Position numbers and translations under genes: made by a program. The notes beneath the pieces are model-generated. The model did not search any database. It saw only the letters and a list, made by a program, of their open reading frames with translations, and was not told the DNA's origin. Shown here piece by piece: positions 26,365 through 63,113 of a stretch of DNA of 64,000 nucleotides. This stretch comes from Kineosporiaceae bacterium (GTDB lineage: Bacteria > Actinomycetota > Actinomycetes > Actinomycetales > Kineosporiaceae). The stretch lies in the NCBI GenBank assembly GCA_016794595.1, contig JAEUJN010000019.1:1-64000 (forward strand). Reading direction: 5' to 3'. The first letter of the stretch is position 1. The number at the start of each line of letters is the position of its first letter.

Positions 26365-28548
26365 ATGACTACATCGTTCTCAGAATCGTGGGTGGTGCGG
26401 ATCGTGGTCCGCCGGGCGCGCCTGGTTCTGGCGGCCTCGGCGATCGCCGTGCTGGTGGCCGCCGTCGCCGGGGCCGGGGCGATCGGCAAGCTGAAGGGCG
26501 GGGGCTTCGAGGACCCCTCGGCGGAGTCCGTGCGGGCCGGTGCGGTGCTGGAGGAGGCCTTCGGTCAACAGGTCGCCAACCTCGTGCTGTTGGTCAGCGC
26601 GCCGCCGGGCAGCAGTGTGGACGCCGCGCCGGTGGCAGCAGCCGGCCAGGACGCCGTCCGTCGCCTGGCGGCCACCGAGGGGATCGAGGTGCTGGGGGCC
26701 TACTGGGGAGCGCCGCCTCAGGTGGCGGCCGGGCTGCGCAGCACGGACGGCACCCGCGCACTGGTGGTGGCGCACGTCGCCGGCGACGAGGACGAGGTTC
26801 TCGGGCGCTCGGCGGAACTGGAGCAGGCCTTCACCGAGGAGGTCGCCTCCGCCGGGGGCACGGTCCGGATCGAGACCGGGGGAATGGTGCAGGCGACGGG
26901 CGACATCACCGATCAGGTCGGGACCGACCTGGCTCGGGCGGAGGCCATCGCGATCCCGCTCACCCTGGTACTCCTGGTGATCGTGTTCGGGTCGGTCGTC
27001 TCCGGCCTGCTCCCCTTGCTGGTCGGCGGGATCGCGATCGCGGCCACCTTCGCCGTGCTGTCGGGGCTGGCCGAACTGACCTCCGTGAGCATCTTCGCGC
27101 TCAACCTGACCACGGCGCTCGGCCTGGGCCTGGGGATCGACTACTCGTTGCTCGTGGTGAGCCGGTTCCGGGAGGAACTGGCTGCGGGACGGCCGGTCCC
27201 GCAGGCCGTCGCGGTGACCCTGTCAACTGCCGGACGCACCGTGGTCTTCTCCGCGGCCACCATCGCGATCGCCCTGGCAGCCCTGATGGTCTTCCCGCTG
27301 TACTTCCTGCGCTCCTTCGCCTACGCCGGGATGGCCGTGGTGATCATCGCGGCGTTGGCGGCCGTGGTCACCCTGCCGGCGCTGCTCGCCGTCCTGGGCC
27401 CTCGGGTCGACGCGCTGCGCATCGGACGCCGCGGGCGCGATCTCGCCCACGGGGGCCAGGCATTCTGGGATCGGCTGGCCCGGCTGGTGATGCGCCGTCC
27501 GGTGCGTGCCGCGCTGCCGGTGCTCGCCGTCCTGCTCACCCTCGGGGCGCCGTTCCTCGCGGTCTCGTTCTCGGTGCCGGACGACCGGGCGATCCCGGCC
27601 GAGGTCTCCCAGGCGCGCCGGGTCGGCGACGTGCTGCGCACCGAGTTCGCCGGGCAGAACTCCGATGCCGTGCTCGCCGTGCTGCCGGGCGCCACCCCGG
27701 CCGAGCTGTCCCGGTTCGCCGAGCAGGTCCGTGAGGTCCCCGGAGTGGCGCGAGTGATCACCGAGCCGGGCATCGTCCGGGCGCCGTTGAGTGTCGACCC
27801 GTTCGGCGGGCAGGCGGAGCAGGTGGTCCGGGACGTGCGCGCCGTGGCTGACCGGGCCGGGGGCCCGGAGGTGCTCGTGGGCGGCCCGACGGCGACCTTG
27901 GTGGACACCAAGGCGGCGATCGGTGATCGGCTGCCCCTGGCGGCGCTGCTGATCGGGCTGAGCACCTTCGTGCTGCTGTTCGCCTTCACCGGCTCGGTGG
28001 TGCTGCCGTTGAAGGCCTTGGTGGTCAACGCGTTCACCATCGTGGCCGTGCTCGGATCGATGGTCTGGGTGTTCCAGCAGGGGCACGGCTCCCAGCTGCT
28101 CGGCTTCACCCCGCTGCCCCTGACCATCACCATGCCACTGCTGATGTTCTGCGTCGCCTTCGGACTGTCGATGGACTACGAGGTCTTCCTGCTGGGCCGG
28201 ATCAAGGAGTTGCACGACGCCGGGATGGACACCACCGCGGCCGTGGCCACCGGCCTGGCCCGGACCGGTCGCATCATCACCACCGCGGCGGCACTGCTGT
28301 CGATCACCATGTTCGCCTTCGTCTCCAGCCGGGTCTCCTTCATCCAGATGTTCGGCCTGGGAACGGGTTTGGCGATCGTGCTGGACGCCACGCTGGTCCG
28401 CGCGGTGCTGGTACCGGCGATGATGCGGCTGATGGGCTCGGCCAACTGGTGGGCACCCGCGCCGCTGCGCCGACTGCACTCCCGGTTCGGCCTGCGCGAG
28501 GGCGGCACCCCCGTTCGGCCCGAACGTCAACTGGCGGAAATCCACTGA
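26365..28548 (+). CDS. MMPL (RND-type) family transporter
   Basis: This 727-residue transporter belongs to the MMPL subfamily of RND permeases. There are 12 predicted helices: one at residues ~23-45 before the first extracytoplasmic loop, a block of five at ~190-360, one at ~395-415 before the second loop, and a last block at ~545-710. Conserved transmembrane motifs include LGLGIDYSLLVVSRF and FGLSMDYEVFLLGRIKE. Family members export lipids, lipid-linked molecules or drugs using the proton gradient. The ATG at 26365 directly follows the TetR operator. The C-terminal tail is short, unlike the long-tailed mycobacterial MmpL proteins. Confidence 0.95.
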   Translation: MTTSFSESWVVRIVVRRARLVLAASAIAVLVAAVAGAGAIGKLKGGGFEDPSAESVRAGAVLEEAFGQQVANLVLLVSAPPGSSVDAAPVAAAGQDAVRRLAATEGIEVLGAYWGAPPQVAAGLRSTDGTRALVVAHVAGDEDEVLGRSAELEQAFTEEVASAGGTVRIETGGMVQATGDITDQVGTDLARAEAIAIPLTLVLLVIVFGSVVSGLLPLLVGGIAIAATFAVLSGLAELTSVSIFALNLTTALGLGLGIDYSLLVVSRFREELAAGRPVPQAVAVTLSTAGRTVVFSAATIAIALAALMVFPLYFLRSFAYAGMAVVIIAALAAVVTLPALLAVLGPRVDALRIGRRGRDLAHGGQAFWDRLARLVMRRPVRAALPVLAVLLTLGAPFLAVSFSVPDDRAIPAEVSQARRVGDVLRTEFAGQNSDAVLAVLPGATPAELSRFAEQVREVPGVARVITEPGIVRAPLSVDPFGGQAEQVVRDVRAVADRAGGPEVLVGGPTATLVDTKAAIGDRLPLAALLIGLSTFVLLFAFTGSVVLPLKALVVNAFTIVAVLGSMVWVFQQGHGSQLLGFTPLPLTITMPLLMFCVAFGLSMDYEVFLLGRIKELHDAGMDTTAAVATGLARTGRIITTAAALLSITMFAFVSSRVSFIQMFGLGTGLAIVLDATLVRAVLVPAMMRLMGSANWWAPAPLRRLHSRFGLREGGTPVRPERQLAEIH

Positions 28549-51347: not shown

Positions 51348-52052
51348 ATGCGCAGCGAGATGTTCAGCCAGGCCAATGTCGAGGTCCAGAGCTCCGAGCG
51401 ATGGGTGCGACAGAGCGACCGCATGCTCAAGGTCACCCTCGGCGCCGACGTCCTGGCCGCCAAGGGCGCCATGGTGGCCTACCAGGGACAGGTGACCTTT
51501 CAGCACGAGGGCGCCGGCAGCATGGGCAAGCTGCTCAAGAAGGTGCTGACCAGCGAGGACAACCCGCTCATGCGGGTCGCGGGTCAGGGGGAGGTGTTCT
51601 TCGCCCGGCTGTCCGAGCACATCTTCCTGATCCAGCTCGAGGGCGACGGGATCAGCATCAACGGTTCCAGCCTGTTGGTCTTCGACGCCACCTTGACCTG
51701 GGACATCCACCGGGTCCAGGGCGCCGGGATGATGACCGGCGGGGTGTTCAACACGGTGGTGTCGGGTCAGGGGACGGTGGCGATCACCTCCGACGGTCCG
51801 CCGATGATCCTCGATTGCTCCCAGCAGCCGACCTTCGTCGACATCCAGGCCACGGTGGCCTGGTCGGCCAACCTCAGGCCGCAGGTGGTCAGCAGCATGA
51901 ACATGCGCTCGATGCTGCGCGGCGGGTCGGGGGAGGCGTTCCAGTACGCCTTCCACGGGCCCGGCTTCGTCGTCGTCCAGCCGAGCGAGGGCTACCCCAC
52001 GCCGACGCAATCCTCCAGTGGCGGTGGGTTGGGCGGCCTCCTCGGCAACTGA
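51348..52052 (+). CDS. AIM24 family protein
   Basis: This 234-residue beta-rich protein belongs to the AIM24 family, named after a yeast mitochondrial protein and also found in bacteria. Conserved blocks are MVAYQGQVTFQHEGAGS, GQGEVFFARLSEHIFLIQL and GSGEAFQYAFHGPGFVVVQP. The biochemical role is unknown. It starts one base after the prfB stop, with AAGGAG upstream, so it is probably co-transcribed with prfB. Immediately after its stop begins a C-rich inverted-repeat unit. Confidence 0.9.
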   Translation: MRSEMFSQANVEVQSSERWVRQSDRMLKVTLGADVLAAKGAMVAYQGQVTFQHEGAGSMGKLLKKVLTSEDNPLMRVAGQGEVFFARLSEHIFLIQLEGDGISINGSSLLVFDATLTWDIHRVQGAGMMTGGVFNTVVSGQGTVAITSDGPPMILDCSQQPTFVDIQATVAWSANLRPQVVSSMNMRSMLRGGSGEAFQYAFHGPGFVVVQPSEGYPTPTQSSSGGGLGGLLGN

Positions 52053-52523
52053 TCCCACCCACCCCCCAACCTGCTCATGCTCCGCGGGTGGCCCGCCATG
52101 CTCCGGTGGCGCTGCCCGAACGGGGCAATTCATCGGACCTGCAGCTCGCCTGGGGAGTATGGCGCGCTGACGCTCGGGCCCGGGCACGTGGGGGGCTCGG
52201 TCTCCTGGAGGGGACGCGCCCTCGGCAGATCACCTCGCCGCCAGGGTTGCGAAGACCTCTACACGTTGTAGAATCATGCTGGCTCGGGCGAGAGTGCGGT
52301 CTCCGACCGGGTCATGGCGCGTCTCGTGGATTCAGTTGTGGTCGCCACCCAAGTCGATCCACGGGGCGCGCCCTCTCGCGTCCGCCCTCGACACCCCCCG
52401 CCCCAACCCGCTCATGCTCCGTGGGTGACGGCTCATGTCGGACAAATAGGTCCGAATGCGGTCGGCTGGGGAGTATGGCCCGTCGCCCGGGGAGCATGAG
52501 CAGGTTGGGGGGTGGGGGTGGGG
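52053..52523. repeat. Inverted-repeat field between convergent aim24 and RIO kinase genes
   Basis: A perfect 26-base inverted repeat lies at 52058-52083 and 52491-52516; its core reads CCCAACCTGCTCATGCTCC. The same unit therefore directly follows both stop codons. A third, partial copy (CCCAACCCGCTCATGCTCCG) is at 52402-52421. A second shared segment (CTGGGGAGTATGGC) is at 52150-52163 and 52466-52479. The block 52410-52502 can fold into a long imperfect hairpin. No protein-coding gene is supported. The field resembles repetitive extragenic palindromes or paired C-rich terminators. Confidence 0.75.
52257..52273. promoter_or_regulatory. Remote BlaI-like dyad
   Basis: CTCTAC-acgtt-GTAGAA matches the form of the two dyads upstream of blaI (TTCTAC-N5-GTAGAA and TTCGAC-N5-GTAGAA). 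It lies inside the repeat field about 2.8 kb from them, with no clear gene start next to it. Confidence 0.35.
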
Positions 52524-53519
52524 TCAGCGGAGGTTGGCGTCGGCGAGTAGCTCGGTGGTCAGGTGGTCAGGGTCGCAGAGGTCCTCGGGCAGGCCACGGG
52601 CGGTGAACCAGCGGGCCATGGTCGCCACGTCGCGGGCCAGGAAACTCGCTCCCTGCGGGTTGACCACGATGTCCACCACCTGCGGGAGATCGATCAGGAC
52701 CAGCCGGCCCTGGTGGACCAGGACGTTGAACGGCGACAGGTCCCCATGGGCGAGCCCCTCGGTGGCCAGAGTGCCCAGCGCCGTGAGGGCTTGGCCCCAC
52801 AGATCGACGAGTTCGGACGGCGCCGGGCGCAGCTGGGCGAGCCGCGGAGCCGCTGTCCCGTCGTCCTCGCCGATGAACTCCATCAGCAGTTCTCGTCCCG
52901 CCCACTGCACCGGGTAGGGCACCAGGCCGCGCACCGTGCCATCCCGGTCGGTTGACGCCGTGCACTGCCAGATGCGCGAGAGGGCCTCGAACTCCGCGCC
53001 GGCCCACTGCACCGAGATCAGGTCACGGCCGAACTGGGTCCGGCGAGCCATGGCGCGGGTCTCGCGCGAGCGACGGACCCGCCGTCCCTCCAGGTAGCCC
53101 GCGTCGCGGTGGAACAGCCGGTGCTCGCTGTCGCGGTATCGCTTGGCGGCCATCAGGATCCGGCGGCTCGTGCCGTCGGAGTCCAGGGATCGCTCCACCA
53201 GGTGGACGTCGGCCTCCTTGCCGGTCTTGAGCACCCCCCGGTCGAGGTCGATCGCCGCCGCGGCCGTGATCACCCAATCGGGGCGGGGGTTCGGGCCCGA
53301 TTGGGCATCGGCCCACTGTGGGACGTCGGTCGCCGCGTCGGCGCGCTCGGGCTCGGGATCGTCGGGGTGCGGCCCCTCGAGCTGGGCCCGCTGGTCGGCC
53401 AGAACCCGCGAGGGTCGACGTCGGCGCCCCCGATCGGTCAGGTCGCCGGGGTCGTCGAGGTCATCGGGGGCGGCGCGGCGCGGTGCGCGCGGCGGGTGGT
53501 GCAGGTCGTGCTCGGTCAC
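52524..53519 (-). CDS. RIO-family serine protein kinase
   Basis: This ~331-residue atypical protein kinase has a nucleotide loop with GKEADVHLV in place of a normal P-loop and an ATP-binding Lys in LMAAKRYR. The catalytic loop is GLAHGDLSPFNVLV (HGDxxxxN), and the metal-binding Asp is in VLIDLPQVVD. The N-terminal ~75 residues are charged and disordered. Bacterial RIO kinases are uncharacterised; archaeal and eukaryotic ones act in ribosome maturation. GTG 53519 is preferred because GGAG lies 7-8 bases upstream; GTG 53531 would add four residues. Confidence 0.9.
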   Translation of the reverse strand: MTEHDLHHPPRAPRRAAPDDLDDPGDLTDRGRRRRPSRVLADQRAQLEGPHPDDPEPERADAATDVPQWADAQSGPNPRPDWVITAAAAIDLDRGVLKTGKEADVHLVERSLDSDGTSRRILMAAKRYRDSEHRLFHRDAGYLEGRRVRRSRETRAMARRTQFGRDLISVQWAGAEFEALSRIWQCTASTDRDGTVRGLVPYPVQWAGRELLMEFIGEDDGTAAPRLAQLRPAPSELVDLWGQALTALGTLATEGLAHGDLSPFNVLVHQGRLVLIDLPQVVDIVVNPQGASFLARDVATMARWFTARGLPEDLCDPDHLTTELLADANLR

Positions 53520-53743
53520 GTCGTTCTCCACGAGGATGGCTGGGTCGGGTGGGCGAGAGGCCGCTCCGCAGGGTCATCTCCGCCTCATCTCCCGACCGTG
53601 GGCCGGTCGTCCTCGATGGTCTTCTCCGACGGTTCCCCACGGTGGCCCGGTCGCGGGCTACGGGCAAGTCAATTTCGACCGGCCCCGACCCGGCTCGGCC
53701 CGGCTCGACCTGCGTGGACCCGGCTCGGCCGCCTCCCGCGCGT

Positions 53744-63073: not shown

Positions 63074-63113
63074 CGTGATCATGCACTTTCACCGTTGAAA
63101 GTGCATGATCACG
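63074..63113. terminator. Perfect 18-base inverted repeat between convergent smpB and GGDEF-EAL genes
   Basis: CGTGATCATGCACTTTCA (63074-63091) and its exact complement (63096-63113) enclose the tetraloop CCGT. It lies between two convergent genes and would form the same stem in both transcripts, so it may be a bidirectional terminator. A C-rich tract on the minus strand (63114-63145) precedes it in the EAL transcript. Confidence 0.65.

Follow-up and report, generated by a model that had tools for sequence, protein, structure and literature searches.

Bacterial gene-end palindromes are mostly interpreted either as RNA hairpins or as the remains of mobile REP sequences. One composite form, the BIME of enterobacteria, is a mosaic of REPs to which gyrase or IHF binds. 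According to excerpts of PMC3733652 and PMC3116915, REPs and REPINs are inverted pairs of a conserved half-unit; they are extragenic and lie behind stop codons, mainly of convergent or co-directional genes. The half-unit is an imperfect palindrome, and in the CGTC families it has a stem of 8-9 bp and a loop of 4-5 nt (PMC3733652, in part). The DNA uptake sequences of Neisseria and Pasteurellaceae can form inverted pairs which have been proposed as terminators (PMC2346458, in part).

As shown in Table 1, an aim24-family gene and a RIO-type kinase gene form a convergent pair, as judged from gene calls and Pfam matches, in the window analysed here, a stretch of 64,000 nucleotides from a Kineosporiaceae bacterium. 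The initial annotation described a perfect 26-base inverted repeat behind both stop codons, with a third partial copy inside. This observation was confirmed, and its interpretation was partly supported, as described below. Residues 52058-52083 are the exact reverse complement of 52491-52516 and sit within a 47-nt pair which is 87% complementary. The third copy (52395-52427) is 88% identical to 52058-52090. A division into two elements describes the three copies better: element A, whose right arm is decayed, and the intact element B. A sequence-only element model built from 41 copies matches element A at 52064-52161 (48.8 bits) and element B at 52401-52510 (79.2 bits). On an arm weight matrix, the left arm of element A scores 39.3 and its right arm has no scoring match, while the arms of element B score 42.2 and 40.7. 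When 52053-52523 was used as the query, 52125-52366 was reached by no genome match but the window itself, among the matches listed (40 of 136 candidates scored).

Table 1. Features of the aim24/RIO kinase junction and copies of the second palindrome (window positions unless a locus is named)
Feature	Position	Strand	Remark
aim24-family gene (PF01987)	51348-52052	+	Stop codon precedes element A
Element A, C-rich flank	52055-52067		Between aim24 stop codon and arm
Element A	52068-52169		Left arm intact; right outer arm decayed
Element A, left outer box	52073-52083		Intact arm
Element A, inner box-like stretch	52094-52104		Left arm
Element A, right outer arm	52154-52164		Decayed; 81 bp from left box; by eye
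Spacer between elements A and B	52170-52390		Mostly without other genome match
Element B	52405-52506		Intact; outer boxes 81 bp apart
Element B, outer left box	52410-52420	+	
Element B, inner left box, alternative type	52431-52441	+	GCTCATGTCGG then ACAAAT; 21 bp from outer box; by eye
Element B, inner right box	52470-52480	-	GGAGTATGGCC; 21 bp from outer right box; by eye
Element B, outer right box	52491-52501	-	
Element B, flank	52507-52523		C-rich on minus strand; between RIO kinase stop codon and arm
RIO-type kinase gene (PF01163)	52524-53531	-	Ends at 52524; stop codon precedes element B on minus strand
Second palindrome, window copy	63076-63111		Between convergent genes (gap from 63051); TTTCA at inner end instead
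Second palindrome, other copies	L033:1602-1639		
Second palindrome, other copies	L039:3854-3891		
Second palindrome, other copies	L244-L263		

Is this repeat common in the genome? The genome that was searched is a draft assembly of 4,954,352 bases in 123 contigs (99.4% complete, 72% G+C). The 471-bp block as the query had at least 85 matches in it. The element model gave at least 150 rows, corresponding to at least 75 places on both strands, including one mirror copy, on contig C54. The exact 11-mer GCTCATGCTCC was counted 116 times, as compared with 10 times for the pattern read backwards. Thus, the family is not a product of chance. A single occurrence, which the initial annotation held would speak against a repeat family, was not what was found, and its suggestion of a REP-like family stands: the repeat is dispersed over at least 75 places and usually lies behind stop codons.

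I scanned 64 stretches around copies and the window (413,707 bases, A/T 28%) with the arm weight matrix. It gave 161 arm matches, as compared with 2 in the reversed sequence, and 69 paired elements, of which 68 are distinct after removal of the C54 mirror copy. The intact arm is 25 bp in length (AACCYGCTCATGCTCCsCnGsyGAC), and the right arm is the inverse of the left. In summary, an element consists of two inverted outer arms around a centre that is not conserved, and inner boxes often lie 21 bp inward of the arms. A recognisable inner box is present in 84 of the 136 arms, with the offset of 21 bp in 78 of the 84. In some elements, an alternative inner module of the ATGATCnGACAAAT type is seen by eye, as is a related one in element B. 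A fixed rule of two outer boxes and at least one inner box was rejected, as it showed a trend only (Fisher p 0.095).

The outer boxes are 80-83 bp apart in 58 of the 68 elements and 91-93 bp apart in 10, with none between, where C23:57302 is counted as 92 bp because its better-scoring 71-bp match fits an inner box. The two spacing classes differ by about one helical turn. The A/T content over the whole element has a period of 10.0-10.25 bp when compared with permuted positions (p 0.0025 for 81 bp, n = 37; 0.0045 for 82 bp, n = 19; 0.001 for 92 bp, n = 8). The repeated boxes account for part of this period. From one arm to the centre, it did not reach significance once the choice of the best among many periods was allowed for (p 0.11 and 0.09). 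The two classes may stem from one old indel. If so, the evidence for phasing is the absence of other lengths.

Which is conserved in these elements, the letters or the pairing? The 16-bp core is perfect in 86 of the 136 arms and in both arms of 31 of the 68 elements. For the centres of these 31 elements, the best match to any other centre has a median identity of 0.70 and a maximum of 0.78, as compared with 0.60 and 0.64 for shuffled centres. Since the centres of perfect-core elements are at most 0.78 identical, fresh copying does not account for their intact arms. The centres resemble one another more than shuffled centres do, and common descent shows across them, chiefly in the 92-bp group, where several elements share centre sequence. 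As for pairing, the left and right arms of 41 elements agree in 167 of 287 cells at 7 variable positions, as compared with 166.5 after shuffling, and in 197 cells with G-U allowed, where 195.3 are expected by shuffling. The exception is L040:1099, which has the same change in both arms at position 3 (p 0.019). Within the arm, none of the six pairs of ACCTGC/GCAGGT around a 9-nt loop is formed above shuffling. The lack of arm covariation and the diverged centres argue for a DNA site read by a putative protein over an RNA hairpin or a recent mobile element. All in all, it looks as if letters are maintained in place in the intact arms and length in the spacing, as would fit a protein reading double-stranded DNA.

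Part of the family appears to be decaying: 24 of the 136 arms score below 30 bits (the median of the training arms is 41), and 9 strong arms belong to no paired element. Decayed copies are under-counted here, since the search for copies relied on the arms. On C23 near 45793 (L177), an element-free convergent junction reads CCCAACC-AGT-GAGCAGGTTGGG and looks like a deletion scar between two arms. Two elements on contig C39, at 21181 and 22545 (L200), are 1.36 kb apart with centres 0.87 identical. They are the sole local pair which looks rather recently duplicated, and the core is a variant with GATCGTGCTCC in three of the four outer arms.

Next to which genes do the elements lie? With genes called by a custom codon-usage caller, 70 elements were placed (the 69 pairs and element A of the window). 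Convergent genes flank 34 of them, tandem genes 29, and divergent genes 5, and 2 are at contig ends; two of the 5 divergent cases are one mirrored copy, and 4 remain if the mirror is not counted. None of the 70 lies inside a called gene. In the same stretches, the element-free gaps of at least 100 bp (n = 96) are convergent in 9, tandem in 54, and divergent in 33 cases. Stop codons are a median of 17 bp away from an element (n = 97) and start codons 95 bp (n = 39), and the stop codon is the nearer one in 23 of the 29 tandem cases. The spare intergenic sequence beside elements has a median of 43 bp (n = 33), the same as that of element-free convergent gaps (n = 37; p 0.78). These equal lengths look as if the elements once inserted into ready-made gaps, and they weigh against reading the elements solely as built-in gene ends. 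The location behind stop codons decides nothing alone, since REPs share the habit (PMC3733652, in part).

A C-rich, G-poor flank before the arm is typical of the family; in the 81-bp class, the 15 positions before the arm have a C frequency of 0.41-0.79 and a G frequency of 0.05-0.23. The initial annotation had proposed paired Rho-type terminators. The C-rich, G-poor flank does fit Rho loading, and the termination itself is presumed from the sequence. In several places, two elements flank a single called gene at a distance of only 0.7-1.4 kb from each other (C57:19884/20604, C23:57302/58293, C23:47309/48402, and C78:162598/163982). The idea that a gene between two close elements encodes the cognate factor was dropped; those examined read by eye as ordinary genes.

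Are the same gene ends equipped with anything in related bacteria? The relatives compared for gene ends without the element belong to other genera. Behind ettA, strong folds were found in 11 of the 11 relatives read (z -3.2 to -9.5, mononucleotide shuffles), with a stem of at least 11 bp in 10 of them; the gene beyond differs from that of this genome, and a twelfth relative (G003) was left out because its gene is only partial. In the Kineosporiaceae genome, an element starts right behind the stop codon of ettA (z -8.9). Among plasmid records, the ettA protein of this genome is 76-79% identical to those of Streptomyces, Tsukamurella, and Nonomuraea, and 58% to the next one listed, from Sinorhizobium, as would suit an actinobacterium. 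Behind crp, a stem of at least 12 bp is present in 6 of 12 relatives and a z of -3 or lower in 5 of 12, and 8 of 12 share the convergent neighbour that crp has in this genome. The crp end of this genome itself gave a z of -1.5 in the 110-nt stretch folded, which truncates the element. The RIO kinase and aim24 genes are the same convergent pair in G004 and G007, with an ordinary hairpin between the stop codons. In G003, the gene beyond the RIO kinase gene reads by eye as prfB, and no hairpin was seen. At the ends of ettA, in part at those of crp, and at the RIO-aim24 junction, the element thus stands where relatives often have terminator hairpins.

The long hairpin described in the initial annotation is present as a predicted RNA fold of 52394-52523 (-90.5 kcal/mol, z -7.15, equalled by 0 of 200 shuffles), but the arms lack covariation, and the letters are not kept for pairing. 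In Rfam 15, there was no match above the gathering score for 51800-52800 of the window. Such a very stable fold, directly behind stop codons and in the slot of many relatives' ordinary hairpins, would suit a two-way intrinsic terminator, in which the long hairpin formed by either transcript releases RNA polymerase with no need of a DNA-bound protein. However, the letters are conserved far beyond the needs of pairing, and a hairpin loop presumably needs no fixed length. In addition, a run of 4 T within 14 nt was found at 0 of 140 ends (a run of 3 at 38 of 140), and this absence speaks against a plain intrinsic terminator. I regard this explanation as distinctly unlikely.

No other genome was found to carry the family in the searches described here. 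The exact 15-mer core was counted 92 times in this genome, and 5 of 57 relatives have a single occurrence each; the exact paired pattern was found in 1 of 396 genomes of the order, which is this genome. A scan of a collection of 84,980 species, which may leave out this genome, gave one stretch, in a Verrucomicrobia MAG. This stretch was set aside as chance; it lacks the AACC flanks and is surrounded by other repeats of the same letters. In the 15-mer scan of viral contigs, there was one match in each row among the matches listed. All these scans need exact letters and would miss a family with changed letters. The element model matched 12 other members of the family Kineosporiaceae only at E 0.013 or worse; its matches at E up to 1 exceed the nominal number, with 1 to 35 per genome (35 in G007). 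A plasmid or phage origin was rejected, as blastn with 52380-52530 of the window found no match in either the plasmid or the phage collection, which may omit the records of this genome.

Has the element been spread by transposition? The initial annotation considered a MITE, and neither this nor recent mobility was upheld: there is no target-site duplication, no near-identical relative of the perfect-core elements, and no gene for a Y1 (RAYT-type) transposase. A direct 4-mer or 5-mer is shared in at most 2 of 41 elements at any offset of 0-29 on either side. Whole-length homology, as in MITEs, was rejected on the best centre match (median 0.70 against 0.60 shuffled), which is closer only in the 92-bp group and in one local pair. 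An REP driven by a RAYT was likewise rejected, with PF01797 absent from the genome.

A broader explanation is an REP/REPIN-like selfish repeat, moved by a transposase in trans and tolerated behind stop codons without a host function. Inverted doublets with a fixed spacing, which are extragenic, near stop codons, and mostly between convergent or tandem genes, are what has been described for REPs and REPINs (PMC3733652 and PMC3116915, in part). The similarity of centres above the shuffled level and the subfamilies sharing centre sequence indicate that copies descend from one another, the residual gap lengths fit insertion, and lone and decayed arms exist. Nevertheless, a replicating population with intact ends should hold recent siblings, and near-identical pairs are absent except for C39:21181/22545 (0.87) and the C54 mirror copy. 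PF01797 (Y1 transposase) had 0 matches in the 99.4% complete assembly, while 5 of 14 named genomes had it in the control. Target-site duplication was not seen, and the arms neither form a stem of 8-9 bp with a loop of 4-5 nt, as CGTC REPs do, nor show within-arm covariation. This explanation seems rather unlikely.

The reading that I prefer, with nearly an even chance of being right, is that the element is a protein-bound, two-way barrier or terminator at gene ends; the protein, its multimeric binding, and the termination are all putative. A putative sequence-specific protein would dock on the double-stranded DNA of each element, which would serve as its symmetric binding site. Two outer half-sites, often with inner ones 21 bp (two helical turns) inside, would be shown on one face of the helix, with the halves of the element about 81/82 or 92 bp apart. 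With several half-sites on the same face of the helix, the bound protein would probably be a multimer. The complex over the roughly 100-bp element would sit right behind stop codons, often between convergent genes, and a polymerase from either gene would meet the block. The complex may stop the polymerase or help Rho do so, as C-rich RNA just behind the stop codon would be available to Rho. The symmetry of the element implies action in both directions, which would suit convergent genes.

The dyad symmetry and the A/T phasing of about 10 bp over roughly 100 bp are also as in wrapped DNA. Together with the preference for convergent genes, they could indicate a BIME-like site of chromosome organisation or topology, where gyrase, a nucleoid protein, or a condensin loader acts at the positive-supercoil build-up of convergent transcription and termination is incidental. 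Gyrase and IHF are among the proteins that bind BIMEs. The nearly invariant 16-bp core of the element is, however, much stricter than the sequence preference of gyrase, which is looser. That BIMEs and REPs bind several proteins (PMC2817692, in part) is in favour of such a site, which I nonetheless consider quite improbable.

Conserved letters and spacing without conserved pairing between the arms would point to a DNA-bound factor at gene ends, as the protein-bound barrier supposes. With about 75 natural copies, two spacings, and ordinary hairpins in relatives at some of these genes, termination by a protein roadblock or the formation of boundaries at convergent genes would be directly testable here.

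I found a second lineage-specific palindrome at gene ends, CGTGATCATGCACTTTCGA-n-TCGAAAGTGCATGATCACG, a short hairpin with nearly fixed stem letters and variable loops. The gap from 63051, which has this palindrome, is one of the convergent gaps of the window that are free of the long element. Its half, TGATCATGCACTTTC, has 123 exact occurrences in this genome and occurs once in 1 of 57 relatives. Twenty-nine rows were examined, and two of them were set aside (a chance match inside a gene and a missing neighbour); among the remaining 27, 18 are convergent, 7 tandem, and 2 divergent. The two palindromes are unrelated, and both are lineage-specific and letter-conserved, occupy the same niche, and have C-rich flanks. 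Six 14-16-mers of both palindromes, as exact strings, occur in none of 5.39 million papers. No description of the long element's family was seen among the papers listed on REP/REPIN and actinobacteria, convergent terminators, roadblocks, intergenic repeats, uptake sequences, and intrinsic termination.

A more speculative idea, which I find doubtful, is that two or more unrelated, lineage-specific palindromes serve the genome as standard punctuation of gene ends, and that each has its own putative protein, which would read it as DNA and block polymerases in both directions. If true, bacteria would here have an equivalent of protein-roadblock termination at convergent genes, replacing the hairpin terminators of relatives.

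As a separate observation, contig C54 (53,476 bases; L185 and L186) looks like its own mirror image, reflected about 26738, with the mirrored repeats 3284-3392/50085-50193 and 7500-7514/45963-45977. The reflection point holds a hairpin copy of the second family (26721-26756). The mirror is probably an assembly artefact hinged on the hairpin.

How does the long element compare with known systems? Like the intrinsic terminators of relatives in the same family, it lies behind ettA, in part behind crp, and behind the RIO kinase and aim24 genes; unlike them, it is long with conserved letters, while theirs are shorter with sequences that differ between genera (by eye). It shares with DNA uptake sequences a lineage-specific motif that can form inverted pairs. 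In contrast to these, it has about 75 places instead of hundreds to thousands, occurs as 68 pairs against 9 lone arms in stretches chosen around copies, and lies inside called genes in 0 of the 70 placed cases. The nearest known kinds are REP/REPIN and BIME. The 68 distinct inverted doublets at 80-83 or 91-93 bp are extragenic, like REPs and REPINs. REPs have a GTAG or CGTC tag at one end; the arm ends with GACg (CGTC on the other strand), with the last G present in only 42 of 82 arms. Unlike REP/REPIN systems, the genome has no Y1 transposase gene, the half-units are not REP-type stem-loops, inner boxes lie 21 bp inside the outer ones, the two spacings are about one helical turn apart, and the centres have diverged while many ends are intact. 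Like the BIME, whose traits are taken partly from excerpts of PMC2817692, the element is a composite palindromic feature of gene ends and a plausible protein-binding platform. It differs from the BIME in its unrelated sequence and in its fixed layout of boxes, as compared with the variable mosaic of the BIME.
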